Shown in pieces: positions 11,727 to 26,315 of a DNA stretch of 38,086 nt. The notes beneath the pieces are model-generated. The model worked only from the letters and a program-made list of their open reading frames with translations. It made no database searches and was not told where the DNA came from. Location: positions 1-38,086 of the forward strand of contig JAQVDB010000015.1 in assembly GCA_028698525.1 (NCBI GenBank), in the 5' to 3' direction. The stretch comes from Clostridia bacterium. Its GTDB lineage: Bacteria > Bacillota > Clostridia > JAQVDB01. Position 1 is the first letter of the stretch, and each line of letters starts with the position of its first letter. The position numbers and the translations under genes are program-made.

Positions 11727-12068
11727 GTGAAGATAAGTGAAATAAAAGAGATTCTTGATGCACAAGTGATATTTGGCGAACATCTATTGGATAATTCAGT
11801 AAACTGTGCTTGTGGTGCAGATTTGATGAGTGATGTTCTTGCGTTTGTCAAAGACAAGCTGGTTCTTTTGACAGGCCTTACAAATCCTCAAGTAATACGA
11901 ACCGCCGAAATGGTAGATGTTTGTGTGATAGCATTTGTCAGAGGTAAGATGCCTGATAAAGAAACTATTAAGTTAGCAGCAGAAAATAATATATGTCTCC
12001 TTAAAACTGATTTAACGCTATTTGAAGCCTGTGGAAAACTTTATAAAAAGGGATTAAAAGGGAAATAA
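11727..12068 (+). CDS. DRTGG-domain protein, first copy
   Basis: This 113-residue protein resembles the DRTGG domain found in HPr kinase N-termini, CBS-DRTGG proteins and phosphotransacetylase relatives, whose biochemical role is poorly known. Recognisable family features are the segment ADLMSDVLAFVKDKLVLLTGLTNPQVIRTAE and the C-terminal CLLKTDLTLFEACGKLY. It aligns by eye over its length with the second copy at 13859-14200, so the two are probable paralogues flanking the ATPase and HydS genes. The literal DRTGG string is not present. A CxC pair (NCACG) sits where the family usually has glycines. GTG start at 11727, 13 bases after the SPOR gene. Confidence 0.78.
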   Translation: MKISEIKEILDAQVIFGEHLLDNSVNCACGADLMSDVLAFVKDKLVLLTGLTNPQVIRTAEMVDVCVIAFVRGKMPDKETIKLAAENNICLLKTDLTLFEACGKLYKKGLKGK

Positions 12069-12085
12069 ATTAGAGGTGTTTAGAT

Positions 12086-12526
12086 ATGAATGAGAATATC
12101 TTTAAATTAGGTTTTGATATAAAAGGAGGAGACTTTTCAGCTGCTGGAGAGGCATCTAGCAAGACTAAAAAGACGTTAAAGCAACTGGGAATTGATTCTC
12201 ATATAATAAGAAGGGTAGCTATTGCAACATATGAGACCGAAATGAATATAGTGATTCATGCGGATGAAGGACGAATGGAGATAGATGTTACACCGGAAAG
12301 GATAATCATCTATGCAAATGATAGAGGTCCTGGAATAGAAAGTATTGAACTCGCAATGAAGGAAGGTTATTCTACAGCTCCGGATAATATAAGAGAGTTG
12401 GGCTTTGGCGCAGGTATGGGGCTTCCCAACATGAAAAAATGTTCTGATAGTTTTGACATAAAAACAAAAGTAGGAGAGGGTACTAAAATAAAGATGGTTA
12501 TAAATTTAAATAGGGGAGATAATTGA
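12086..12526 (+). CDS. RsbW/SpoIIAB-like ATP-binding protein (anti-sigma-type kinase fold)
   Basis: The 146 residues form a stand-alone GHKL (HATPase) domain like that of anti-sigma factor serine kinases. The N box is ETEMNIVIHA (Glu50, Asn54), the G1 box is DRGPGI at 79-84, and the G2 box is GFGAGMGL at 107-113. There is no dimerisation domain of a histidine kinase and no sigma factor or anti-anti-sigma partner in the window. In HydS-type gene clusters such ATPases are suspected signalling partners. AGAGGTG precedes the ATG by about eight bases, and the stop overlaps the HydS start by one base (TGATG). Kinase or binding activity is inferred from the fold. Confidence 0.85.
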   Translation: MNENIFKLGFDIKGGDFSAAGEASSKTKKTLKQLGIDSHIIRRVAIATYETEMNIVIHADEGRMEIDVTPERIIIYANDRGPGIESIELAMKEGYSTAPDNIRELGFGAGMGLPNMKKCSDSFDIKTKVGEGTKIKMVINLNRGDN

Positions 12527-13851
12527 TGGGGGAATATTTTCACTCAGTAACTTTAAATAAGGATAAATGCAAAGGTTGCACTAATTGCATAAAAAGATGC
12601 CCTACTGAAGCAATCAGAGTGAGAGACGGAAAAGCTAGGATTATAAATGAAAGGTGTATTGACTGTGGGGAGTGTATTAGGATATGTCCTTACCATGCAA
12701 AGCAGGCGATAACAGATCCGTTGAATATAATAGAAAAGTACAAATACAGCATAGCTCTTCCTGCACCTACTTTATATGGTCAATTTAAAAATTTTTATGA
12801 TGTACAGGCTATCCTAAATGGACTTCTTCAACTAGGCTTTAACGAGGTATATGAAGTAGCCAGGGGAGCAGATATTATAAGTTCGTATATAAATAGAAAG
12901 ATAAAACAGAAAAAATATAAAAAACCCATAATATCATCAGCTTGTCCGGCTATTTTGAGGCTTATCCAGGTACGATTTCCTGAACTTATCCAAAATGTGA
13001 TAGATGTTGATTCTCCAATGGAAACAGCGGCTAAAATGGCTAAAAAAGAGGCTATAAAAAAATTTGCATTATCAGAAAATGATATTGGAGCTTTTTTTAT
13101 AACACCCTGTGCTGCTAAAATGACCAGCATAAAAAATCCTATAGGCAATAAAAAGTCATATGTAGATGGAGCTATTTCTATACAGGATATATATGGGCCT
13201 TTGAACAATGTAATTAGCAACTATAAATCAACAGGGCACAACAAATCGGACAGAGGGATACAAAAGGCTTCAGGGTATGGGGTAGGATGGGCAATATCTG
13301 GCGGAGAGGGACACGCTGTTGAAACAGAAAATTTTTTATCAGTAGACGGGATACAAAACGTAATAAAAGTTCTAGAGGAAATAGAGAACAACAAGCTCAA
13401 TGACCTTGATTTTTTTGAAGGGTTAGCTTGTCCTGGCGGATGTGTAGGAGGTCCATTGACTGTTGAGAATGGGTTTGTTGCAAAGAACAGAGTGAGAAGG
13501 CTGGCGGAAAAGGTTCCTAAAGAGTTGCTGGAAGACAGAGAGCTAGATCGGATATTGAAAACCATCAACGTAGATTTAAAAGAACCTATAACGGCTAAAT
13601 CCGTTATGAAATTGGATGAGGATATTGTTGAGGCCATAAAGAAGATGGAGAGGTTAGAGCAGATATGCGATAGTTTACCTGGATTAGACTGTGGTTCTTG
13701 CGGTGCGCCGAGCTGCAGAACTCTTGCAGAGGATATTGTAAGAGGAAATGCATCGGAATTTGATTGTATTTTTAAGCTTCGTGAAAAGGTAAAAGAATTG
13801 GCTACACAGATGGTTGATATTTCAGACAAATTTCCACCTAGAAAGGGGTGA
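12526..13851 (+). CDS. HydS-like putative sensory [FeFe]-hydrogenase homologue without PAS domain
   Basis: Domains in order: two [4Fe-4S] ferredoxin motifs (Cys15/18/21/25 and Cys44/47/50/54), an [FeFe]-hydrogenase large-subunit domain, and a C-terminal CX2CX4CX16C cluster (Cys389, 392, 397, 414). The H-cluster loops are divergent. L1 reads SSACPAI (137-143), L2 TPCAAK (193-198) and L3 GLACPGGCVGG (299-309). All four presumed H-cluster cysteines remain (140, 195, 302, 306). The proton-transfer Cys before Cys140 is Ala139, as I recall for the sensory Thermotoga HydS. Sensory hydrogenases usually end in a PAS domain; here the protein stops after the Fe-S motif at 441 residues. ATG 12526 is preferred over TTG 12523 because AGGGGAG lies seven bases upstream. 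Slow or sensory H2 chemistry is inferred. Confidence 0.88.
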   Translation: MGEYFHSVTLNKDKCKGCTNCIKRCPTEAIRVRDGKARIINERCIDCGECIRICPYHAKQAITDPLNIIEKYKYSIALPAPTLYGQFKNFYDVQAILNGLLQLGFNEVYEVARGADIISSYINRKIKQKKYKKPIISSACPAILRLIQVRFPELIQNVIDVDSPMETAAKMAKKEAIKKFALSENDIGAFFITPCAAKMTSIKNPIGNKKSYVDGAISIQDIYGPLNNVISNYKSTGHNKSDRGIQKASGYGVGWAISGGEGHAVETENFLSVDGIQNVIKVLEEIENNKLNDLDFFEGLACPGGCVGGPLTVENGFVAKNRVRRLAEKVPKELLEDRELDRILKTINVDLKEPITAKSVMKLDEDIVEAIKKMERLEQICDSLPGLDCGSCGAPSCRTLAEDIVRGNASEFDCIFKLREKVKELATQMVDISDKFPPRKG

Positions 13852-13858
13852 AAAGTTT

Positions 13859-14200
13859 ATGAAGGTATGCGATATGATAGAAAAATTAAAATTAAATGTC
13901 GTAGCAGGTAACAAATATCTCGATAAGGAGATAACGGGCGGCTATTGTTGTGATTTATTGAGTTGGGTTATGTCTCATGCTAAACAAGGGTTTGTATGGA
14001 TAACTGTGCAGGTGCATCCCAATATAATTGCAGTTGCTACTCTCTTAAATATCAGCTGTATTATAGTTCCTGAGGGGATAAAGATTGAGAATGAAACTAT
14101 AGAAAAAGCTGAACAAGAGGAAATTCCGTTATTGTCCTCTAGCTTATCTGGATATGAGATAGCTGGGAAATTGTATGGTTTTGGGATAAAAGAGGGCTAG
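13859..14200 (+). CDS. DRTGG-domain protein, second copy
   Basis: This 113-residue DRTGG-family protein has the closer family match: KEITGGYCCDLLSWVM near residues 23-38. A hydrophobic alternating core (FVWITVQVHPNIIAVATLLN) and a C-terminal SGYEIAGKLYGFGI follow. It appears paralogous to the protein at 11727-12068, with identical length. The open frame extends upstream, but ATG 13859 is chosen because AAAGGGGTG (13842-13850) is eight bases before it and the upstream stretch overlaps the HydS gene. Adjacent cysteines (CC) occupy the usual glycine-rich motif. Function unknown; ligand binding or redox signalling is possible. Confidence 0.82.
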   Translation: MKVCDMIEKLKLNVVAGNKYLDKEITGGYCCDLLSWVMSHAKQGFVWITVQVHPNIIAVATLLNISCIIVPEGIKIENETIEKAEQEEIPLLSSSLSGYEIAGKLYGFGIKEG

Positions 14201-14204
14201 GGCT

Positions 14205-14933
14205 ATGAAGATTGCCGTTGATTTGCATATTCACTCTGCATTGTCTCCATGTGGAGACGATGATATGACTCCCAACAACATTGTAAATATGTGTAAGCTA
14301 AAGAAACTAGACGCAATTGCATTGACTGATCATAATTCGTCATTAAACGTAGAAGCAGTTAAACGCTTGGGAGATAAAAATGATTTATGTGTAATACCGG
14401 GAATGGAAGTGCAGACAAAGGAAGAGGTACATTTGATATGTCTTTTCCCGGATATGCAATCTATAAATGAGTTTCAAGTGATAATTGATCGGAATCTGCC
14501 TGATATTGAAAACAAGGAGAATATATTTGGGAGGCAGCTTTTGTTCGATGAGCAAGATAACATTATAGCAAGCTATAAAAAGCTCCTTTTAACGTCCACT
14601 GTTCTTACAATTGGGGAGGTATATGAATATGTCTATAGATTAGGCGGGGTTACCATTCCAGCACATATAGATAGATATGGATTTAGTTTGTTGACTAATC
14701 TTGGGTTTATCCCTGAAAGTCCTGAATTTACTACTCTAGAGTTGTCCAAGAATGTTGATTTTTTAACATTTAAAAAACAAAATCCTTTTATTAAAAAATA
14801 TAGGACAATAATATCTTCTGATGCCCATTATTTATGGGATATATTGGAACGTCAAACGATTATTGATGTTTATAAAAATAAGCCGGTTGATATAATAAAT
14901 TTGTTAAAAAGCAACAAAAACCTAAACATATAG
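14205..14933 (+). CDS. PHP-domain phosphoesterase
   Basis: The polymerase-and-histidinol-phosphatase (PHP) fold binds two or three metal ions and hydrolyses phosphate esters or nucleotides. Metal-ligand motifs are visible: DLHIHS (His8, His10), LTDHN (Asp42, His43), GMEVQT (Glu68) with His76, HIDRYGF and SSDAHY near the C-terminus. The 242 residues fit single-domain PHP proteins. It follows the second DRTGG gene by four bases and is the last gene of the operon. PHP proteins occur beside DRTGG/HydS genes in other clostridia as far as I recall; a nucleotide-signal hydrolase is one idea, not shown. Confidence 0.88.
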   Translation: MKIAVDLHIHSALSPCGDDDMTPNNIVNMCKLKKLDAIALTDHNSSLNVEAVKRLGDKNDLCVIPGMEVQTKEEVHLICLFPDMQSINEFQVIIDRNLPDIENKENIFGRQLLFDEQDNIIASYKKLLLTSTVLTIGEVYEYVYRLGGVTIPAHIDRYGFSLLTNLGFIPESPEFTTLELSKNVDFLTFKKQNPFIKKYRTIISSDAHYLWDILERQTIIDVYKNKPVDIINLLKSNKNLNI

Positions 14934-14988: not shown

Positions 14989-15022
14989 ACTAAATTATAA
15001 TAAATTTAGTGAATTTTTTTTT
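14989..15022 (+). terminator. AT-rich intrinsic terminator after the PHP gene
   Basis: ACTAAATT (14989-14996) pairs with AATTTAGT (15003-15010) over a 6-base loop, followed by GAA and nine T residues. The stem is AT-only apart from one C-G pair, so termination may be partial. It separates the HydS operon from the hydC operon. Confidence 0.5.
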
Positions 15023-15028
15023 GTTTTA

Positions 15029-15037
15029 TGGTAGAAT
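15029..15037 (+). promoter_or_regulatory. Extended -10 promoter for the hydCBA operon
   Basis: TGgTAGAAT fits an extended -10 with a weak -35 region. It lies about 86 bases before the TTG start of hydC, so the transcript would carry a leader of roughly 80 bases. I do not recognise a Rex or other known redox-repressor operator in it. Confidence 0.4.
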
Positions 15038-15122
15038 GATATTTGGGCAAATCATTGATAAAAAATTATCAATCAAGAAATCTATTAAAATTTTTAATTA
15101 TTATTTGTGGGAGGGGATTATT

Positions 15123-15605
15123 TTGGCTCAGTGTATCAACGAGGAGAACCAGGATAAGTTTAAAAAGTTAAAAAAAGTAATTGATCAGCATAAAGGAAAA
15201 AATGGAGATTTGATGCCTATTATGCACGAAGCACAGCACATCTTTGGTTATCTTCCCTTTGAAGTTCAAAACTATATTGCAGAGGAATTGAATATTCCGT
15301 TAACTGACGTATACGGTGTAGCAACTTTTTATGCCCAATTTACTCTTCAGCCTAAAGGCAAATACCAGATTGGAATTTGTCTTGGTACCGCTTGCTATGT
15401 AAGAGGTGCGCAGAAGGTCGTGGAGAGAGTTGAAAGCGAATTAGGTATTAAAGTTGGACAAACGACAGAGGATGGCAAATTTACCCTTGATGCTACAAGG
15501 TGTTTGGGAGCTTGCGGACTCGCCCCTGTTATGATGATAAATGATGACGTACACGGCAGATTGGTACCAGACGATATTCCTAAAATTTTAAAGCAATATC
15601 AATAA
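15123..15605 (+). CDS. hydC: HydC: NuoE-like [2Fe-2S] subunit of bifurcating [FeFe]-hydrogenase
   Basis: HydC is the NuoE-like electron-transfer subunit of the HydABC complex. The thioredoxin-like fold binds one [2Fe-2S] cluster through CLGTAC and CLGACG (CX4C...CX3C). The family hallmarks LMPIMHEAQHIFGYLP and DVYGVATFYAQF are present. The open frame runs further upstream to 15009, but the 38 extra residues do not look like the family. TTG at 15123 has GGGAGGGG (15109-15116) six bases before it and gives a normal 160-residue protein. First gene of the operon that ends with hydA at 20135. Confidence 0.93.
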   Translation: MAQCINEENQDKFKKLKKVIDQHKGKNGDLMPIMHEAQHIFGYLPFEVQNYIAEELNIPLTDVYGVATFYAQFTLQPKGKYQIGICLGTACYVRGAQKVVERVESELGIKVGQTTEDGKFTLDATRCLGACGLAPVMMINDDVHGRLVPDDIPKILKQYQ

Positions 15606-15613
15606 AGATTCTT

Positions 15614-16168
15614 ATGAGAGAAATATCTTTACACATATTGGACATAGTACAAAATTCAATAAAGGCCGGAGCAGACCTTATAAAAATATCTATCCGTGAG
15701 GATATCAAGGATAATATTATGGTGATTGATGTAGTAGATAATGGTAAAGGAATTCCCGAGGAAATGTTGGGTAGGGTGACCGATCCCTTTGTTACCATGC
15801 GGAGTACCAGAAAAGTAGGGATGGGTTTACCTTTGTTAAAAGCTGCTGCGGAAAGATGTGACGGAAGTCTTGAAGTGAAAAGCGAGTTGGATAAGGGTAC
15901 AGCTGTGAGGGCTGTATTTGTCCATGACCATATAGATAGGGCGCCTTTAGGCGATGTCACAGGCACCATTGTTTCGCTCATAATGACTAACCCCGATATT
16001 GATTTCGAATATATTCATTATTACAATCAAGAACAGTTTCAATTCGATACCAGAAGTGTAAGAGAAGTATTGGGGGATGATGTGCCTATATCGGATATTG
16101 AAGTCATACAGTGGATAAAAGGTTATATAGATGAAGGAATATCTAAAATGTATGGAGGTGTAATTTAA
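15614..16168 (+). CDS. Kinase-type ATP-binding (HATPase) protein within the hyd operon
   Basis: A GHKL ATPase domain occupies about residues 1-105: N box HILDIVQNSIKAGA (Asn14), G1 box DNGKGI at 42-47 and G2 box KVGMGLPLL around 67-74. There is no phospho-accepting histidine helix and no sensor domain. Residues 110-184 form a segment I do not recognise. The protein differs from the RsbW-like ATPase at 12086; its boxes resemble those of histidine kinase catalytic domains. Genes of this type commonly sit between hydC and hydB in clostridia. It is eight bases from hydC and overlaps the next gene by one base. It could be a regulator of the operon or of the complex; this is not shown. Confidence 0.85.
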   Translation: MREISLHILDIVQNSIKAGADLIKISIREDIKDNIMVIDVVDNGKGIPEEMLGRVTDPFVTMRSTRKVGMGLPLLKAAAERCDGSLEVKSELDKGTAVRAVFVHDHIDRAPLGDVTGTIVSLIMTNPDIDFEYIHYYNQEQFQFDTRSVREVLGDDVPISDIEVIQWIKGYIDEGISKMYGGVI

Positions 16169-16536
16169 TGAAATCGATAAAAGAATTGGAAGAGATAAGA
16201 AATAGAACTCTTGAAAAGGTTAATTTGAGAAAAGATAGACAAACTGGCATTAGGGTTGTTGTAGGGATGGCTACTTGTGGAATAGCAGCAGGTGCAAGAC
16301 CTGTATTACACGCATTCATGGAAGAGATAAGCAAAAGAAAGCTTCAGGATGTTATAGTAACCCAGACAGGATGTATAGGCGTGTGCAGGTTGGAGCCTAT
16401 TGTAGAGGTGTTTGTTCCGGGAGAAGAAAAGGTGACATATGTGGAGATGACACCTGAAAAAGTTGCAAGGGTGGTAGCAGAGCATATCGTTAATGGAAGA
16501 GTTGTGAAGGAATTTACCATAGGAAGTTATGAATAA
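16168..16536 (+). CDS. Small thioredoxin-like [2Fe-2S] ferredoxin-domain protein with three cysteines
   Basis: This 122-residue protein resembles the N-terminal [2Fe-2S] domain of HydB/NuoF-like subunits. In HydB the ligands are CX4C and CX3C. Here the second motif is intact (Cys69 and Cys73 in TGCIGVC), but the first reads CGIAAG, keeping Cys37 and having Gly42 in place of the second Cys. Cluster binding would need another ligand or be lost. The ATG overlaps the upstream stop by one base, with GGAGGTG seven bases before it. It may be an accessory electron carrier or assembly partner of HydABC. Cysteine count is directly seen; the role is inferred. Confidence 0.85.
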   Translation: MKSIKELEEIRNRTLEKVNLRKDRQTGIRVVVGMATCGIAAGARPVLHAFMEEISKRKLQDVIVTQTGCIGVCRLEPIVEVFVPGEEKVTYVEMTPEKVARVVAEHIVNGRVVKEFTIGSYE

Positions 16537-16565
16537 AGAAAAATGTCAGTAGAGGAGGTAATACA

Positions 16566-18359
16566 ATGGAGTTGTATCGATCACATGTATTGATTTGTGG
16601 CGGAACCGGATGTACTTCTTCAGGTTCTGATAAGGTCGCTGATAAATTTGATAGTGAACTAAAAAAACATGATTTGGATAAAGAAGTGAAAGTTGTAAGG
16701 ACAGGGTGCTTTGGATTATGTGAAGTGGGTCCTATTGTAGTTGTTTATCCGGAAGGGGCCTTTTATAGTAGAATCACTGAAGAAGATGTAAAATTAATAG
16801 TAGAAGAGCACCTAATGAAAGGCAGAATAGTTAAAGATTTATTGTATGATGACAGTGTGAAAGACGATATAATAAAATCACTTTCAGAAGTAGAGTTTTA
16901 TAAAAAACAGATGAGGGTTGCTCTTAAAGGGTGCGGGTTAATAGATCCTGAAGATATCGATGAATATATAGCGATTGACGGATATAGAGCGCTTGCCAAG
17001 GCAGTGACCGAGATGACACCTGAACAAGTTATAGATACTTTAAAAGAATCCGGATTGAGAGGTCGTGGTGGTGCCGGGTTCCCTACAGGGCTTAAGTGGT
17101 CATTTGCAGCAAAAGCTGAAGGTGATGAAAAATATGTAATATGTAATGCCGACGAAGGTGACCCAGGTGCTTTTATGGACAGAAGTATATTAGAGGGAGA
17201 TCCTCATGCTATTATAGAAGCGATGACTATTGCCGGATATTGTATAGATGCAAGCCAAGGTTTTATTTATGTAAGGGCTGAGTATCCGATTGCAGTTAAA
17301 AGGTTGAACATTGCAATAAATCAGGCAAAGGAATATGGTCTACTTGGCAAGAATATATTTGATTCAGGTTTTGATTTTGATTTGGAAGTTAGATTGGGTG
17401 CCGGTGCATTTGTTTGCGGAGAAGAGACGGCATTGATATCATCTATAGAAGGTAAGAGGGGAGAACCAACGCCTAAACCTCCTTTCCCAGCCAATGAAGG
17501 TGTGTTTGGTAAGCCTACATTGATTAACAATGTTGAAACATTTGCAAATATACCTCAAATATTGCTTAACGGACCTGAATGGTTTACCAAGATAGGTACT
17601 GAAAAGAGCAAGGGAACTAAGGTATTTGCTCTTGGGGGAAAGATAAACAACACAGGATTGGTAGAAGTACCTATGGGAACTACTTTAAGAGAAATCGTGT
17701 ATGAAGTAGGTGGAGGGATACCTAACGGTAAGAAGTTTAAGGCGGCACAGACCGGCGGACCATCAGGAGGATGTATACCGGCTTCTAATCTGGATGTTCC
17801 TATCGATTATGAATCTCTAGCTCAAGTTGGTTCCATGATGGGTTCAGGTGGACTTATCATAATGGATGAAGATAACTGTATGGTTGACATAGCAAAGTTC
17901 TTTTTGCAATTTACCGTTGATGAATCCTGTGGGAAATGCCCTCCCTGCAGAATAGGTACAAAGAGGATGCTAGAAATATTGGAAAAGATTACTAGTGGCA
18001 ATGGGACTATGGAAGATATAGATAATTTGGAAATATTGGCTAATAATATTAAGCAATCAGCACTATGCGGTTTAGGTCAGACGGCACCGAACCCTGTATT
18101 GAGCACATTGACATATTTTAGAGATGAATATATTGCTCATGTAAAGGATAAGAAATGTCCTGCAGGCGTTTGCACAAATCTGCTAAGCTATGAAATAATC
18201 GAAGATAAGTGTAGAGGGTGTGGCCTATGCGCAAGGAGCTGTCCTGTAACAGCTATTTCGGGTGAAAAGAAAAAGCCATATAAGATCGATCAAGACAAAT
18301 GTATCAAATGTGGGGCATGTATGGAGAAATGTCCTTTTGGTGCAATAATTAGAAAGTAA
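16566..18359 (+). CDS. hydB: HydB: NuoF-like NADH- and flavin-binding subunit of bifurcating hydrogenase
   Basis: HydB binds FMN and NAD(H) and, in HydABC complexes, is the proposed site of flavin-based electron bifurcation or confurcation. Domains in order: N-terminal thioredoxin-like [2Fe-2S] (Cys11, 16, 48, 52); NuoF core with the FMN/NADH glycine motif GRGGAGFPTGLKW at 166-178 and CNADEGDPGAF; SLBB region; [4Fe-4S] motif CGKCPPC at 455-461 with Cys501; and two C-terminal [4Fe-4S] ferredoxin motifs (CRGCGLCARSCP, CIKCGACMEKCP). All expected cysteines are present and 597 residues is typical. AGAGGAGGT precedes the ATG. The bifurcating mechanism follows from family and operon context. Confidence 0.96.
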   Translation: MELYRSHVLICGGTGCTSSGSDKVADKFDSELKKHDLDKEVKVVRTGCFGLCEVGPIVVVYPEGAFYSRITEEDVKLIVEEHLMKGRIVKDLLYDDSVKDDIIKSLSEVEFYKKQMRVALKGCGLIDPEDIDEYIAIDGYRALAKAVTEMTPEQVIDTLKESGLRGRGGAGFPTGLKWSFAAKAEGDEKYVICNADEGDPGAFMDRSILEGDPHAIIEAMTIAGYCIDASQGFIYVRAEYPIAVKRLNIAINQAKEYGLLGKNIFDSGFDFDLEVRLGAGAFVCGEETALISSIEGKRGEPTPKPPFPANEGVFGKPTLINNVETFANIPQILLNGPEWFTKIGTEKSKGTKVFALGGKINNTGLVEVPMGTTLREIVYEVGGGIPNGKKFKAAQTGGPSGGCIPASNLDVPIDYESLAQVGSMMGSGGLIIMDEDNCMVDIAKFFLQFTVDESCGKCPPCRIGTKRMLEILEKITSGNGTMEDIDNLEILANNIKQSALCGLGQTAPNPVLSTLTYFRDEYIAHVKDKKCPAGVCTNLLSYEIIEDKCRGCGLCARSCPVTAISGEKKKPYKIDQDKCIKCGACMEKCPFGAIIRK

Positions 18360-18389
18360 GTTGTTCAAAAAGAGTAAGGAGTGTGAAAG

Positions 18390-20135
18390 ATGGAAAAAGT
18401 AACCTTGACTATAGATGGGCAAAAAGTTGAAGTCCCAAAGGGTTCCACTGTGTTGGAAGCGGCAAAGAGTATCGGTATTGATATCCCGACATTGTGTTAT
18501 TTAAAGGGTGTAAACGAGATAGGCGCATGTAGAATGTGTGTTGTTGAAGTGAAAGGTGCTAGAACATTACAGACATCTTGTGTATTAAAAGCTACTGATG
18601 GAATGGAAGTACAGACCAATTCTCCAAAGGTGAGAGAATCAAGAAAAGTCACATTGGAATTGATACTTTCAAATCACGACAGAAGTTGTTTGAGTTGTGA
18701 CAGAAATTTAAACTGTGAACTTCAAAAGTTATCAGATGAGTTGAACGTTAAAGAAATAAGATTCCAAGGTGAATCTATGAATAGACCTATAGATGAATTT
18801 TCACCGTCTATAGTGAGAGATCCTAATAAATGTATATTGTGTAGGAGATGTATAAGTACTTGCAGGGATGTTCAAGGTATTGGTGTAATAGGTGCTACAG
18901 AAAGAGGTTTCAATACTATTGTAGAGCCTGTATTTAAAAAGAGTATCGGTGATGTACCATGTATTAATTGTGGTCAGTGCATAGAGGCGTGTCCTGTAGG
19001 TGCTTTGAGAGAAAAAGACGATACTGACCTAGTTTGGGATGCATTGGCTGATGAAAACAAGCATGTTGTGGTTCAGACAGCTCCTGCCGTACGAGTTGCT
19101 TTAGGGGAAGAGTTTGGCATGCCCATAGGTACAAATGTAAAAGGGAAGATGGTGTCTGCTTTGAGGAGGCTAGGTTTTGACCGAGTTGTAGATACCAACT
19201 TTGCAGCTGACCTGACTATTTTAGAAGAAGGTACAGAGCTGATCAATAGGATTAAAAGTGGTGGGAAGTTGCCTATGATCACATCGTGTAGCCCTGGATG
19301 GATAAAGTATTGTGAGCATTATTTTGCGGATTTTCTGGATAACTTATCATCCTGTAAATCTCCACATGAGATGATGGGAGCTGTATTGAAATCTTATTAT
19401 GCGGAAAAACAAGGAATAGATCCTGAAAATATTTTTGTCGTTTCTATAATGCCTTGCACCGCTAAAAAGTTTGAGGCTAAAAGACCAGAGTTGAGTGGAA
19501 CAGGTTATCCGGATGTGGATGTTGTTCTTACTACAAGAGAGTTGGCTAAGATGATAAAAGAAGCAAGGATGGATTTTGGTAAATTGCCTGATGAAGATTT
19601 TGATCATCCATTAGGAGCCTCAACTGGAGCAGCTGTTATCTTCGGTGCTACAGGTGGTGTTATGGAGGCGGCATTGAGAACGGTGTGTGAAGTATTGACA
19701 GGTGAAGAGCTCAAGGATATTGCTTTTGAAGATGTTAGGGGTTTAAAAGGGGTTAAGGAAGCAACTGTTAAAATTGGAGATTTAGATGTAAATGTAGCTG
19801 TTGCTCATGGAACTAAAAATGCTAAAGAATTACTGGAGAAAGTAAGATCCGGAGAAAAAGATTATCATTTCATAGAAGTCATGGGATGTCCTGGCGGATG
19901 CGTAAATGGTGGAGGGCAGCCTATAGTAAATGCTAAGATAAAGATGGATATTGATCCTGCTAAGGTTAGGGCAAAGGCTATATATGAAGAAGATGAAAAT
20001 CTTCCTATCAGAAAATCCCATGAAAATCCAGAAATTAAAAAGATATATGATGAGTACTTTGGTGAGCCTAACAGCCATAAAGCTCATGAATTACTTCATA
20101 CTAAATACCAAAAGAGGGAAAAATATATCATATAG
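18390..20135 (+). CDS. hydA: HydA: catalytic [FeFe]-hydrogenase subunit (HndD-like)
   Basis: HydA produces or oxidises H2 in the soluble HydABC complex. Domains in order: plant-type [2Fe-2S] (Cys36, 47, 50, 64); His-Cys3 [4Fe-4S] (His96, Cys100, 103, 109); two [4Fe-4S] ferredoxin motifs; then the H-cluster domain and small-subunit tail. L1 is TSCSPGW at 298-304, L2 MPCTAKKFE at 354-362 and L3 EVMGCPGGCVNGGGQP at 496-511 with Cys500 and Cys504. L1 has Cys-Ser where the textbook motif is Cys-Cys; I recall this variant in NAD(P)-linked multimeric hydrogenases. Length 581 matches HndD-type subunits. AAGGAGTG precedes the ATG. Hydrogenase maturases HydE, HydF and HydG are not in the window. Confidence 0.96.
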   Translation: MEKVTLTIDGQKVEVPKGSTVLEAAKSIGIDIPTLCYLKGVNEIGACRMCVVEVKGARTLQTSCVLKATDGMEVQTNSPKVRESRKVTLELILSNHDRSCLSCDRNLNCELQKLSDELNVKEIRFQGESMNRPIDEFSPSIVRDPNKCILCRRCISTCRDVQGIGVIGATERGFNTIVEPVFKKSIGDVPCINCGQCIEACPVGALREKDDTDLVWDALADENKHVVVQTAPAVRVALGEEFGMPIGTNVKGKMVSALRRLGFDRVVDTNFAADLTILEEGTELINRIKSGGKLPMITSCSPGWIKYCEHYFADFLDNLSSCKSPHEMMGAVLKSYYAEKQGIDPENIFVVSIMPCTAKKFEAKRPELSGTGYPDVDVVLTTRELAKMIKEARMDFGKLPDEDFDHPLGASTGAAVIFGATGGVMEAALRTVCEVLTGEELKDIAFEDVRGLKGVKEATVKIGDLDVNVAVAHGTKNAKELLEKVRSGEKDYHFIEVMGCPGGCVNGGGQPIVNAKIKMDIDPAKVRAKAIYEEDENLPIRKSHENPEIKKIYDEYFGEPNSHKAHELLHTKYQKREKYII

Positions 20136-21269: not shown

Positions 21270-22598
21270 TTGAATGGTGTATTAACTTTTCGTGGTGGTA
21301 TCCATCCACCTCATAGAAAATCTAGAACTAGCAGTTTAGAGATAAAAAAAGCAGAGACACCTTCCATTCTTGTAATTCCTATGCAGCAGCATATTGGAGC
21401 ACCTTGTATTCCTATCGTGGAAAAGGGACAATATGTTAAAGTTGGTCAAAAGTTAGGAGAAGCAAAGGGATTTGTGAGTGCTCCTGTGCATTCCAGTGTA
21501 TCAGGGATTGTTAAGGAAATAAAAAAGTGGGAATATCCTCTAGGACAAGAGGTAGATTCTATAGTTATTGAATCTGATGGCAATGAAACTATAGATGAAT
21601 CAGTTCGTCCTGTCAGCTCATTAGAAGATTTGTCTCCTGACGAGATAAGACAAATTATAAGAGAGGCAGGTATCGTGGGGATGGGGGGAGCTACATTTCC
21701 TACTCAGGTAAAACTATCTCCACCTCCTGAAAAGAAAATTGATACTGTTATTATAAATGGTGCAGAATGCGAACCGTATTTAACTGCCGATCACAGAGTT
21801 ATGCTTGAAAAGCCTGATGATGTTATATTCGGGCTTAAAGCGATAATGAAAACTGTAAGGGTTGATCATGGTTATATAGCTATAGAAGACAATAAAAAAG
21901 ATGCAATTAAATTACTGACAAAAAAATGTGCTGATCGATCCGACATTTCAGTTGTGACTTTAAAGACAAAATATCCTCAGGGTGCTGAAAAACAATTGAT
22001 TAAGGCTATAACTGGAAAAGAAGTACCTTCAGGTGGGTTGCCTATGGATGTTGGTGTAATAGTATCCAACGTTGGTACTGCATGTGCAATAGCAAATGCA
22101 GTAAATGTAGGTATGCCTCTGGTAGAACGGGTTGTTACTGTTACAGGTAACGGTGTAAAAAACCCGCAGAATATGTTGGTTAAAATAGGAGTTACCTTTA
22201 GGGAAGTGATAGAGCAATGTGGTGGTTTTAATGGAACACCTGCAAAAGTTATCATGGGAGGGCCTATGATGGGGTTAGCCCAATATTCAATCGATGTTCC
22301 GGTGATCAAAGGTACGTCCGGTATATTGGTATTGACTGAAGATGAAGCAAAGCAGCATCAAGTCAAACAATGCATCAGATGTGCCAGGTGTGTTGATGCT
22401 TGTCCTGTAGGATTGATGCCTATAAATATTTCTAACTATATATCTATCGGTAATCTTGATGAAGCAGAAAAATTAAATGTGCTTGACTGCATAGAGTGCG
22501 GCAGTTGTTCTTTTACTTGTCCTGCAAGAAGGCCACTGCTTCCCAATATCAGGATGGCAAAACAAAAGATTATAGCGCAAAAGCGAAACAAAAAATAA
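21270..22598 (+). CDS. rnfC: Rnf complex subunit RnfC
   Basis: RnfC is the peripheral NADH-dehydrogenase-like subunit of the Rnf complex, which couples ferredoxin:NAD+ electron transfer to sodium or proton pumping. The family start (TFRGGIHPPHRK), a GVVGMGGATFP-like glycine motif (GIVGMGGATFPTQVKL), and the INGAECEPYLTADHR motif are present. Two [4Fe-4S] motifs lie at Cys368/371/374/378 and Cys407/410/413/417. Translation starts at TTG 21270 with AGGTGAGGTG just upstream; no in-frame ATG gives the family N-terminus. First gene of rnfCDGEAB, the usual clostridial order. Confidence 0.97.
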   Translation: MNGVLTFRGGIHPPHRKSRTSSLEIKKAETPSILVIPMQQHIGAPCIPIVEKGQYVKVGQKLGEAKGFVSAPVHSSVSGIVKEIKKWEYPLGQEVDSIVIESDGNETIDESVRPVSSLEDLSPDEIRQIIREAGIVGMGGATFPTQVKLSPPPEKKIDTVIINGAECEPYLTADHRVMLEKPDDVIFGLKAIMKTVRVDHGYIAIEDNKKDAIKLLTKKCADRSDISVVTLKTKYPQGAEKQLIKAITGKEVPSGGLPMDVGVIVSNVGTACAIANAVNVGMPLVERVVTVTGNGVKNPQNMLVKIGVTFREVIEQCGGFNGTPAKVIMGGPMMGLAQYSIDVPVIKGTSGILVLTEDEAKQHQVKQCIRCARCVDACPVGLMPINISNYISIGNLDEAEKLNVLDCIECGSCSFTCPARRPLLPNIRMAKQKIIAQKRNKK

Positions 22599-22620
22599 AT
22601 GCTTGGAGGGATAGAGAAAA

Positions 22621-23541
22621 ATGGAAGATCAGAAATTTATTGTGTCATCTTCTCCTCACATAGCTACAGATGTTACAGTTAACAAAATAATGTATAGTGT
22701 GATCGCTGCACTGATTCCTACTGTAATATCTGGCATATATTATTTTGGTATTTATTCTGTGTGGATGATACTGGCAAGTATATTGGCTTGTGTATTGACT
22801 GAGTTTGTCTTTCAAAAATTGAGAAACAAACCTCTGACTATAGATGATGGAAGTGCTGTAGTTACCGGCCTTCTCTTGGCTTTGACTTTACCACCCCGAT
22901 TACCGTTGTGGATGGTTATTCTAGGGGCGGTAGTAGCAATCGGACTGGGAAAGCAGGTTTTTGGGGGAGTGGGATGTAACCCTTTTAACCCGGCCCTAGT
23001 GGGGAGAGCATTTTTGATAATAAGTTTTCCCGTCCATATGACTACATGGATTAATCCTGTAGATGGTGTTACATCTGCGACACCGTTGAATTTACTAAAG
23101 ATGGAAGGAGCTACTACAAGTTATATTGATTTATTTACCGGTAATATAGGTGGGTCTATCGGTGAGACCTCTGTAATAGCCATTATTTTAGGGGGAATTT
23201 ATCTTATTTATAAAGGTTATGCTGACTGGAGGATACCTGTAGGTTATTTAGCAAGTGTTGCTATACTGTCCCTTATAATTGGACAGGACCCAATCTTTCA
23301 CCTGTTAGCCGGAGGATTGTTATTTGGGGCATTTTTTATGGCAACTGATATGGTAACAACGCCTGTGACCAAAATAGGAAGGTTTGTCTTTGGTATAGGT
23401 GCAGGAGTTTTAGTAGTTATAATAAGGGTATATGGAGGTTATCCTGAAGGCGTGATGTTTTCAATACTTTTAATGAATGGTTTGACACCCATAATTGACA
23501 GATATACCCGCTCCAGAATATATGGGGAGGTGCGCCAATGA
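22621..23541 (+). CDS. rnfD: Rnf complex membrane subunit RnfD
   Basis: RnfD is an integral membrane subunit homologous to NqrB and carries a covalently bound FMN. The 306 residues have about nine hydrophobic segments. The flavinylation motif is DGVTSAT at 148-154, with Thr154 the likely FMN attachment site. Conserved DDGSAVVTGLLLALTLPP and VFGGVGCNPFNPALVGR stretches match the family. It overlaps rnfG by four bases (ATGA). An FMN transferase (ApbE) is required for this modification and is not in the window. Confidence 0.96.
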   Translation: MEDQKFIVSSSPHIATDVTVNKIMYSVIAALIPTVISGIYYFGIYSVWMILASILACVLTEFVFQKLRNKPLTIDDGSAVVTGLLLALTLPPRLPLWMVILGAVVAIGLGKQVFGGVGCNPFNPALVGRAFLIISFPVHMTTWINPVDGVTSATPLNLLKMEGATTSYIDLFTGNIGGSIGETSVIAIILGGIYLIYKGYADWRIPVGYLASVAILSLIIGQDPIFHLLAGGLLFGAFFMATDMVTTPVTKIGRFVFGIGAGVLVVIIRVYGGYPEGVMFSILLMNGLTPIIDRYTRSRIYGEVRQ

Positions 23542-24083
23542 AAGGAATATTGAGGTTAGTAGTTGTACTTGGTATTATTTCCATTTTATCAGGGTTTATT
23601 TTAGCAGAAACATCTATCCTTACACAGCCTAAAATAGAAGAAGTAGCTCAAGCCAGACTGGAGGAGGCAATTTTTGAAGTATTGCCCGATGCCAAGGAGT
23701 ATCAGGAGGTTGATGGAGCCTCTATTGAAATGTATCAAGGTTATGATGATTCGGGTGATACTGTTGGTATAGCCTTTATTGCTCAGGAAGCGGGATTTCA
23801 AGGTGATATAAGTATAATGGTAGGTATGAATGTTGACGATGAGATCCTTACCGGAGTATCGATATTGAGTCATGCAGAGACACCAGGATTAGGTGCGAAA
23901 ATAACGGAAGGCTTTTTTACTGATCAATTTAAAAATAAACCGGTGTCTGATGAATACCAGGTTAAGGAAGATGTGGATGCTATAACAGGTGCTACTGTTT
24001 CTTCTAAAGCTGTAGCTAAAGCATTAAAAGATAATATAGAAATTGCACTTGAAGAATATAAAAAGGGCGGTGGCAATCAATGA
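23538..24083 (+). CDS. rnfG: Rnf complex flavoprotein subunit RnfG
   Basis: RnfG is anchored by one N-terminal helix (about residues 5-25) and holds a covalent FMN in a domain outside the cytoplasm. The attachment motif is DAITGAT at 147-153, with Thr153 the expected ligand. A GATxxSKAV context and the ETPGLGAKI segment match the FMN-binding domain of the family. The length of 181 residues is normal. It overlaps its neighbours on both sides by four bases, showing tight translational coupling. Confidence 0.96.
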   Translation: MKGILRLVVVLGIISILSGFILAETSILTQPKIEEVAQARLEEAIFEVLPDAKEYQEVDGASIEMYQGYDDSGDTVGIAFIAQEAGFQGDISIMVGMNVDDEILTGVSILSHAETPGLGAKITEGFFTDQFKNKPVSDEYQVKEDVDAITGATVSSKAVAKALKDNIEIALEEYKKGGGNQ

Positions 24084-24694
24084 GGATGTGGAAAGAATTC
24101 ACAAAAGGCTTATGGAAAGAAAATCCCACTTTCAGGCTGGTGCTGGGTATGTGTCCTACACTTGCTGTTACAAATGCAGCTATGAACGGTTTGGCAATGG
24201 GCCTTGCGACTACCTTCGTCCTGTTGTTTTCAGAAATAATAATTGCTGCCATAAAGGACTTGATACCCGACGAAGTTAGGATACCATCTTATATCATAAT
24301 AGTTGCAACATTCGTGACTGTTATTGACTTGGTATTGGCTGCTTATTTTCCGGATATGCATAAGGTATTGGGTTTATTTATACCATTAATTGTTGTTAAC
24401 TGTATTATACTGGGAAGGGCAGAAGCATTTGCATCAAAGAACACTGTGATGCTTTCCATAGCAGATGCACTAGGTATGGGTTTGGGTTTTACCGCATCTT
24501 TGACTGTGCTAGGAATAATAAGAGAAATACTGGGAATGGGAAGCGTATTTGGTATAAATATAATGGGAGAAGCATATACCCCAATAATAATATTTGTTTT
24601 AGCGCCTGGGGCGTTTATCACTTTAGGTATACTGATGGGAATAATGAATCATGTTTCTAATAAAAACAATTCGGGAAAAGATGAGTGCAGATAA
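24080..24694 (+). CDS. rnfE: Rnf complex membrane subunit RnfE
   Basis: RnfE is an integral membrane subunit homologous to NqrD and to RnfA; the two have inverted topology and together may bind an Fe-S centre in the membrane. The 204 residues have about six helices. Family features include the N-terminal FTKGLWKENPTFRLVLGMCPTLAV and the central FIPLIVVNCIILGRAEAFAS, each holding a conserved cysteine. ATG overlaps the rnfG stop. Role assigned from family. Confidence 0.96.
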   Translation: MRMWKEFTKGLWKENPTFRLVLGMCPTLAVTNAAMNGLAMGLATTFVLLFSEIIIAAIKDLIPDEVRIPSYIIIVATFVTVIDLVLAAYFPDMHKVLGLFIPLIVVNCIILGRAEAFASKNTVMLSIADALGMGLGFTASLTVLGIIREILGMGSVFGINIMGEAYTPIIIFVLAPGAFITLGILMGIMNHVSNKNNSGKDECR

Positions 24695-24715
24695 TGGGTG
24701 AAAGGGGGTTGCAAT

Positions 24716-25300
24716 GTGAAAGAACTGATATTGATATTCGTAGGTTCTATATTGGTAAACAATTTCGTGCTGGCAAGGTTTTTGGGAACATGTCCTTTCT
24801 TAGGAGTATCTAAAAAGATCGATGTTGCTTTTAGTATGGGAATAGCAACGACTTTTGTAATGACTTTGTCTGCACCAGTAACTTGGATTGTACAAAAATA
24901 TATACTTGAAAAGTTCGGTATGGAAAAATTTTTACAGTATGTTGCATTTATATTGATTATTGCTTCGCTGGTTCAATTGGTGGAGATGGTGATAAAAAAG
25001 AGCAGTCCGTCCTTATATCAAGCACTGGGGATATTTTTACCTTTGATAACTACAAATTGTGCAATTTTAGGACTTGCATTGATTTCTGCTACCAAGGGTT
25101 ATACTCTCATTGAAAGCACTGTGTTTGGATTTGGAGGGGGTATTGGATTTACATTGGCTATTACAATGATGGCAGGCATTCGAGAACAATTAGAGTTTGC
25201 CGATGTACCGGAATGTTTAAAGGGAGTGGGAATTACGTTATTGATTGCAGGTATATTAGCCATGGCTTTTATGGGTTTTTCCGGATTGATAGCAATGTAA
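24716..25300 (+). CDS. rnfA: Rnf complex membrane subunit RnfA
   Basis: RnfA is homologous to NqrE and pairs with RnfE in the membrane. It has about six helices, the N-terminal LILIFVGSILVNNFVLARF, the Cys-bearing FLGTCPFLGVS and the central LPLITTNCAILGLAL. The open frame reaches 24698, but GTG 24716 is preferred: AAAGGGGGTT (24701-24710) is well placed before it, and the family protein begins MKEL at this point. That gives 194 residues, the usual size. Confidence 0.96.
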   Translation: MKELILIFVGSILVNNFVLARFLGTCPFLGVSKKIDVAFSMGIATTFVMTLSAPVTWIVQKYILEKFGMEKFLQYVAFILIIASLVQLVEMVIKKSSPSLYQALGIFLPLITTNCAILGLALISATKGYTLIESTVFGFGGGIGFTLAITMMAGIREQLEFADVPECLKGVGITLLIAGILAMAFMGFSGLIAM

Positions 25301-25331
25301 TAGATATGCGAGGATAGTTGGAGGTGGAAAG

Positions 25332-26315
25332 ATGAATAATAATATACTATTAATTGCAGTAGTGAGTATGGGTGGACTAGGTGTATTTTTCGGAGTAGTA
25401 TTGGCACTTGCATCCAAAAAATTTGCAGTTCAAGTAGATGAGAGAATAGCCAAAACAAGAGAAATATTGCCCGGAGCTAATTGTGGAGCATGTGGTTTTG
25501 CCGGTTGTGATGCTTTTGCAGAAGCAGTGGTGAACAGAGAAGCACCTTTGACCGGGTGTACAGCCGGAGGACCGGATGTTTCTAATAAGATTGCCCAAGT
25601 ATTGGGAATAGATTGTGATACAGAACAAGTAAGGAAATACGCTAAAGTCTTATGCAGTGGGGATTGCCAAAAGAGCAAAGATAAATATATATATATCGGA
25701 TTACAGGATTGCAATGCTGCAGTACAATTAGCCGGAGGTAGCAAATCCTGTCAATATGGATGTTTAGGATTAGGATCATGTGTTAAAGCATGTAATTTTA
25801 ATGCAATAAGCATAGTGAATGGGATTGCAGTAGTGGATCAAAATAAGTGTATCGGTTGTGGCAAATGCATTGATGAATGCCCGAAGGGATTGATTGAACT
25901 GGTTCCTGAAACAAGCCGAGTGCAGGTTTATTGCAAATCTGAAGATAGAGGAAAGACAGTAAAACAAAATTGTCAGGTAGGCTGTATCGGTTGTAGGATA
26001 TGTGTAAGGGAATGCAAGTTTGATGCAATAAGTTTTGATGACAATCTTGCTCATATAGATTATGAAAAATGTACTAACTGTATGGTATGTGCAGAGAAAT
26101 GTCCTACAGGTGCAATCCATGCAGAGTTTGCAAAAAGAAGAGTGGCTAATATAGATGAAGATAAATGTATAGGCTGTACTTTATGCAAAAAAGAGTGTAA
26201 ATTTGATGCTATTGAAGGCGAAAAAAAGCAGCCTCATAAGGTGTTGGAAGATAAATGCGTTGGTTGTGGACAGTGTGAAGTAAGATGTCCTAAAGATGCC
26301 ATAAGTATGAAATAA
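25332..26315 (+). CDS. rnfB: Rnf complex multi-cluster ferredoxin subunit RnfB
   Basis: RnfB is the likely entry point for electrons from reduced ferredoxin. An N-terminal membrane helix (about 5-27) is followed by a CX2CX4CX16C [4Fe-4S] motif (Cys51, 54, 59, 76). Six further cysteine motifs follow between about residues 130 and 325, arranged as three two-cluster ferredoxin units, giving up to seven [4Fe-4S] clusters. This clostridial-type extension is longer than proteobacterial RnfB. The 327 residues end at an intrinsic terminator that closes the operon. Cluster number is counted from motifs only. Confidence 0.96.
   Translation: MNNNILLIAVVSMGGLGVFFGVVLALASKKFAVQVDERIAKTREILPGANCGACGFAGCDAFAEAVVNREAPLTGCTAGGPDVSNKIAQVLGIDCDTEQVRKYAKVLCSGDCQKSKDKYIYIGLQDCNAAVQLAGGSKSCQYGCLGLGSCVKACNFNAISIVNGIAVVDQNKCIGCGKCIDECPKGLIELVPETSRVQVYCKSEDRGKTVKQNCQVGCIGCRICVRECKFDAISFDDNLAHIDYEKCTNCMVCAEKCPTGAIHAEFAKRRVANIDEDKCIGCTLCKKECKFDAIEGEKKQPHKVLEDKCVGCGQCEVRCPKDAISMK

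Follow-up and report, generated by a model that had tools for sequence, protein, structure and literature searches.

[FeFe]-hydrogenases of group C (M2f), among them TmHydS, R. albus HydS and HfsB, join an H-domain and a C-terminal [4Fe-4S] domain to a following signalling domain and have linked phospho-signalling genes, and deletion of hfsB causes regulatory phenotypes (PMC5707799, PMC11837493). Group D (M2e) enzymes, for which the TamHydS study lists two N-terminal [4Fe-4S] clusters, no C299, a C-terminal Cx2Cx4Cx16C motif and no PAS domain (PMC8163306), were already known to lie upstream of bifurcating hydrogenases near a histidine-kinase-like protein (PMC3561251, PMC3608648, PMC8163306), and had been classed as sensory on the same grounds in earlier genome studies (PMC3561251, PMC8163306); signalling without a PAS domain is an open question for the authors who purified TamHydS, from Thermoanaerobacter mathranii (PMC8163306). 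Here we describe a 38,086-nucleotide stretch of DNA from Clostridia bacterium (the window; GenBank assembly GCA_028698525.1, contig JAQVDB010000015.1, positions 1 to 38,086 of the forward strand) in which a group D HydS belongs to a run of five genes, encoding a stand-alone DRTGG protein (DRT1), a SpoIIAB-type ATPase (ATP1), HydS, a second DRTGG-like protein (DRT2) and a PHP-family phosphoesterase (Table 1). We give a probability of about 0.5 to the reading that the five genes form a HydS-headed switch responding to H2 or ferredoxin redox state, in which a SpoIIAB-type kinase works with two DRTGG partners and is opposed by a PHP phosphatase.

The window HydS matches Pfam Fe_hyd_lg_C (134 bits) together with two ferredoxin-type clusters and PF04060, and a motif table shows that it retains all Fe-S ligands: two [4Fe-4S] motifs at the N-terminus, the four H-cluster cysteines (141, 196, 303 and 307) and a C-terminal Cx2Cx4Cx16C cluster (C390, C393, C398 and C415). 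By alignment of the motifs SSACP, ITPC and EGLAC, Ala140 replaces the proton-transfer cysteine C299 of CpI, and Thr194 and Leu301 replace the framing methionines, positions for which Ser and Leu are reported in TamHydS (PMC8163306). The C-terminal PAS domain that marks group C gave no match in a Pfam scan of HydS, and by the published hallmarks its sequence is that of a group D (M2e) enzyme, the same set of features as in TamHydS (PMC8163306, PMC13104023). The initial annotation had thus rightly seen a divergent [FeFe]-hydrogenase homologue with a C-terminal [4Fe-4S] motif, but it overstated the case in calling sensory function established for PAS-containing relatives, whose role is proposed and described as putative in reviews (PMC8924675). 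The likeness to TamHydS extends to the neighbourhood, a histidine-kinase-like ATPase adjoining and a bifurcating hydrogenase downstream, whereas the other reported neighbour of TamHydS is an "AraC family regulator" and a DRTGG-PHP module goes unmentioned in the consulted passages of both studies (PMC8163306, PMC13104023). We suspect that this label is mistaken, because other Thermoanaerobacter genomes (T. mathranii was not among them) hold a DRTGG protein of 111-114 amino acids at that place, followed by PHP.

A HydS search over 391 genomes of the class, some of them incomplete, was combined with 60 fetched neighbourhoods from about 40 families and 65 added named records, and gene content was counted at the 116 HydS loci with enough flank. 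ATP1 is present at all 116, DRT1 at 115, DRT2 at 111 and PHP at 109, and 108 loci carry all five genes in the order of the window. At the whole-genome level (HydS threshold E below 1e-90), 183 of the 391 genomes have HydS, 186 have DRT1 and 181 have both; the two HydS-only genomes (G048 and G083; we number genomes G and loci L) reflect contig ends, as do three of the five DRT1-only cases. Across the phylum, 115 of the 279 genomes searched gave DRT1 (112 of these lie outside the class), and 17 of the 20 module loci read from other classes of the phylum carry an intact HydS. One genome (G318) retains both DRT1-ATPase-DRT2-PHP and HydS although they are about 1 Mb apart (L217, L247). The five genes are therefore a true, near-obligate module and not a chance arrangement, since the same gene order recurs in about 40 families; a restriction to close relatives, the outcome that the initial annotation had named as refuting its module, can be rejected, as the module is also found in other classes. 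A tie of HydS to HydA alone was likewise rejected, the association with the group A6 hydrogenase HydA6 being modest (170 of 183 HydS genomes, leaving 13 with no HydA6 match, versus 155 of 208 genomes without HydS). Three loci from other classes (L265, L267 and L269) have a HydA that seems split into a 352-amino-acid piece and a following open reading frame (ORF) of 413-537 amino acids, and L265, in a single-contig genome, has a frameshifted HydS.

Natural fusions, detected with module profiles and Pfam, show that HydS, the ATPase and the DRTGG proteins belong to one system. DRT1 and ATP1 form a single protein of 269-271 amino acids at five loci from three families outside the class (L252-L256; the DRTGG part of L256 was seen by the module profile only), HydS and DRT2 form a single protein of 563 amino acids at L271, in which DRT2 directly follows the C-terminal Fe-S domain, and CBS domains lie N-terminal to ATP1 in the same frame at L260 and L266. 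These sequences suggest the pairs HydS-DRT2 and ATP1-DRT1 without proving contact. As the PAS domain of group C holds the same place after the C-terminal Fe-S domain, DRT2 is its positional counterpart, and PHP stands in the place of the PP2C/SpoIIE-type phosphatase of group C. Both domains share one frame only at these eight loci: the N-termini of the long ATPase ORFs of L040, L116, L119 and L150 and of the long PHP ORF of L149 are read-through from neighbouring genes in another frame, and the 280-amino-acid DRT1 frames of G219 and G345 comprise separate genes.

ATP1 is a GHKL kinase-type ATPase (Pfam HATPase_c_2, 33.0 bits) in which E50, N54, D79xGxGI and GFGAGMG, the GHKL boxes, are invariant in 40 diverse members, E50 and N54 aligning with the catalytic Glu and Mg-binding Asn of the SpoIIAB N-box. 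The ATPase part of its earlier description as RsbW-like stands, while the affinity needs correction: its closest PDB relative is SpoIIAB (1til, E 2e-11) and RsbW matches weakly (6m36, E 6e-4). On its sequence ATP1 would work like an anti-sigma kinase, but we do not class it as one, because it falls far under the cut-off of the SpoIIAB equivalog TIGR01925 (49 against 135 bits) and neither a sigma factor nor a STAS anti-anti-sigma partner is linked among the recurrent close neighbours of module loci, which are solely the five genes, the hyd genes and an upstream SPOR-domain gene. The module resembles SpoIIAA/SpoIIAB/SpoIIE and RsbV/RsbW/RsbX partner switching in combining a presumed GHKL kinase of SpoIIAB type, its catalytic Glu and Asn retained, with a putative opposing phosphatase. 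It differs in that STAS proteins, sigma factors and PP2C are absent, DRTGG taking the place of STAS and PHP that of PP2C. The fifth gene product is indeed a PHP phosphoesterase, as first proposed: Pfam PHP (36.1 bits), the intact metal ligands in invariant columns (D6, H8, H10, D42, H43, E68, H76, H154, D206 and H208) and an AlphaFold (AF2) model (predicted local distance difference test score, pLDDT, 96.2; best folds EndoQ 5zb8 and RNase AM 7ug9) agree. It reached no NCBIfam cut-off, the best partial match being the PHP domain of TrlF.

The two DRTGG proteins are paralogues that form separate, reciprocally monophyletic clades. Both are present as initially described, although only DRT1 passes the Pfam DRTGG cut-off (25.9 against 25.2 bits), DRT2 scoring below it (23.2 bits) and above threshold for the related fold Hpr_kinase_N (29.7 bits). 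DRT1 (AlphaFold model pLDDT 93.8; best PDB fold 2ioj, a DRTGG protein) carries the motifs G-x-D32-L-M-S35-D36, LLTGL, FVRGKxP and CGxLYxxGL, with D32, S35 and D36 invariant in 47 of 47 sequences, and DRT2 carries Y-x-C-D32-L-L-S35-W, with D32 and S35 in 46 of 46. The CBS-DRTGG region of family II pyrophosphatase (3l2b, 3l31) shares the DRTGG fold, and CBS joins the module's ATPase in two lineages; the module proteins differ in standing alone, in being paired and in their D-x-x-S motif, which all 93 DRT1 and DRT2 sequences have and the CBS-DRTGG regulator encoded in the same genome lacks. The DRT1 model places S35 where the first helix beyond the second strand begins, a setting that resembles the phospho-Ser position of SpoIIAA, which like the DRT proteins is a small alpha/beta partner whose invariant Ser opens a helix. 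We predict that S35 would be the phospho-acceptor of the DRT proteins. Orphan DRT2-type proteins in three genomes without group D HydS (L178, L179 and L182, in G200, G241 and G135) retain D-L-L-S-W, and DRT2 may therefore have a role of its own.

The module and the hyd genes are two tightly packed groups, with median gaps of -4, 16, 8 and 0 bp inside the module and a median of 157 bp between module and hyd operon. Rex-like operators (TTGTTAANNNNTTAACAA, at most two mismatches) occur in the latter, PHP-NuoE gap at 25 of 82 loci against 0.6 expected, and hyd transcription appears from these sites to be under Rex. A terminator shared between module and hyd was rejected as not conserved (12 of 82 loci only), and a linked transcription factor as a module member was rejected too, no such factor or other DNA-binding regulator being recurrent among the neighbours of module loci. 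Copies of the module also precede Rnf (L090, L091 and L248, the last in G062) or NuoEF and then Rnf (L177 and L192), so that the common denominator would be ferredoxin/NADH chemistry rather than HydA alone. At L248, L090, L091 and L211 the module and a second GHKL ATPase stand directly before an RnfC homologue, not HydABC, and the gene order downstream at L248 looks like a full rnf operon. The stricter model of the initial annotation, an H2 sensor controlling transcription of the adjacent hyd operon, draws on the membership of HydS in a putative sensory group, classed so before (PMC3561251, PMC8163306), and on hyd adjoining HydS at most loci. We nevertheless hold it to be distinctly improbable: the module contains no DNA-binding protein, a separate gap with Rex-like sites precedes hyd, Cthe_0335 and Cthe_0340-2 of C. 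thermocellum are reported to differ in expression response (PMC3478167), HydA6 is unmatched in the 13 HydS genomes mentioned above, some modules adjoin Rnf rather than HydABC or are without HydS, and HydEFG went undetected in at least 30 HydS genomes. The target is more likely to lie elsewhere than at the hyd promoter, because the module has no transcription factor and hyd is set apart by a gap with Rex-type sites. Control of hyd transcription is the weakest part of a signalling interpretation that, as such, seems the best available.

We infer the following scheme, which covers the signal, kinase activity and kinase substrate, the part played by PHP, and the output. The five genes would encode a single signalling device coupled to the enzymes of H2, ferredoxin and NADH interconversion. 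HydS would be its input, the H-cluster and Fe-S chain following H2 or ferredoxin redox state, and DRT2 would dock on the C-terminal [4Fe-4S] domain of HydS, thereby standing in for the PAS domain found in group C sensory hydrogenases. ATP1 would act as a SpoIIAB-type Ser kinase with DRT1 as its partner, the invariant D-x-x-S35 of both DRT proteins would accept the phosphate, and the PHP protein would reverse the modification. Since no transcription factor is linked and hyd is apparently under Rex, the device probably acts on HydABC itself, altering its activity or its partner binding, and in the same way on Rnf at loci where the module adjoins Rnf. A bolder formulation, which we advance only tentatively and think possible rather than probable, is that this is a new signal architecture, with [FeFe]-hydrogenase input, DRTGG Ser phospho-switches, a SpoIIAB-type writer and a PHP eraser: partner switching without STAS or PP2C, spread across one phylum and setting the flow of H2, ferredoxin and NADH through HydABC and Rnf.

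Several observations weigh against the switch. S35 may have a structural role; HydS and DRT2 were seen fused at a single locus; five rumen genomes have DRT1-ATPase-HydS only, with neither DRT2 nor PHP, and two genomes have no PHP, so that PHP is not always needed; and modules without HydS exist (L177, L260), whence HydS may not be the sole input. The CBS-ATPase fusions suggest adenylate sensing in some lineages, and one of them, L260, is itself without HydS. Such cases would suit a regulator that reads adenylates or energy charge: AMP/ATP-type ligands would bind to the DRTGG proteins and the ATPase, these would tune HydABC or Rnf, and HydS would be an optional accessory that adds redox information; the best-known setting of DRTGG is next to CBS domains (3l2b), and the placement of the module before Rnf as well as HydABC would fit too. 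We regard this regulator as unlikely, given that HydS is in nearly every module and can be fused to DRT2, and that CBS fusions occur at just 2 of the 20 loci from other classes.

A further difficulty for the HydS-headed switch is that HydE, HydF and HydG were all undetected in the HydEFG-less genomes noted above, of which most are near-complete and two are single contigs; examples are G062 (L248), G318 (L217, L247), G251 (L050) and G133 (L081). With all candidates scored, HydF was not found in 43 of the 183 HydS genomes, among which HydG was found in 4 and HydE scored over the cut-off in 4, while relatives from the same genera or families did give maturase matches; a HydF match was also absent from 94 of 325 HydA6 genomes. 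HydS and HydA6 of the HydEFG-less genomes keep all H-cluster motifs where read, and we therefore reject decay of HydS or HydA and do not take the absence as loss of the H-cluster: the maturases could have been missed, or there could be another maturation route or use without the [2Fe] site. That HydS keeps all its Fe-S ligands, together with the constant adjacency of the module to HydABC or Rnf, could also speak for accessory proteins that assemble, repair or feed electrons to these enzymes, HydS being a slow hydrogenase or electron shuttle. This is quite unlikely in our view, as GHKL kinase, paired DRTGG proteins and phosphoesterase make up no known assembly set, HydA6 occurs in 155 genomes without HydS, and at L270 (G426) the module is pseudogenised (ATPase, HydS and PHP truncated) beside an apparently intact HydABC, which argues that HydABC has no structural need of it.

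HydS, its ATPase and the position of HydS upstream of hyd were already known. In the open-licence literature we found no discussion of the DRTGG or PHP parts with hydrogenases (DRTGG and hydrogenase together gave one unrelated paper) and no paper combining DRTGG, PHP and ATPase, and the complete module, fusions included, seems not to have been described there. The conserved module and its fusions, HydS-DRT2 and DRT1-ATPase, name likely partners and S35 as a candidate residue. On a basis that includes published locus-tag order, C. thermocellum, for which genetics exists, seems to have the module, and we take Cthe_0335 to be its HydS. If the switch is real, it would link H2 and ferredoxin sensing to enzymes on which H2 and ethanol yield depend across a very large set of anaerobes, gut and rumen bacteria included.

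Table 1. Coordinates of the module and of neighbouring features in the window.
Feature	Position	Strand	Length (amino acids)	Remarks
DRT1, stand-alone DRTGG protein, paralogue 1	11727-12068	+	113	
ATP1, SpoIIAB-type GHKL ATPase, presumed Ser kinase	12086-12526	+	146	
HydS, putative group D (M2e) [FeFe]-hydrogenase, no PAS	12523-13851	+	442	
DRT2, DRTGG/HPrK-N-like protein, paralogue 2	13859-14200	+	113	ATG start at 13859 by match to relatives; longest ORF would begin at TTG 13814
PHP-family phosphoesterase	14205-14933	+	242	
Downstream hyd operon	15009-20135	+		HydC/NuoE-like, second GHKL ATPase, [2Fe-2S] protein, HydB, HydA
Rex-like palindrome TTGATAAAAAATTATCAA	15055-15072	+		2 mismatches, by itself not significant in the window; likely TTG start of HydC (15123) lies about 50 bp further downstream
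Second GHKL ATPase of hyd operon	15614-16168	+		between HydC and [2Fe-2S] protein
[2Fe-2S] protein of hyd operon	16168-16536	+		
HydB	16566-18359	+		
HydA	18390-20135	+		group A6, above NCBIfam cut-off
RnfCDGEAB operon	21270-26315	+		downstream of HydABC; ORFs by inspection

The window bears out the gene order first proposed for 11727-14933: all five ORFs are present and adjoin on one strand with every gap at or below 18 bases, Pfam assignments support their identities, and a complete catalytic HydABC operon does follow directly, its HydA having A. woodii HydA1 as the nearest solved structure (7q4v, E 6e-245). Immediately 5' of the module lies the SPOR-domain gene, which recurs in only part of the relatives, and the second GHKL ATPase is conserved together with the hyd operon in relatives.

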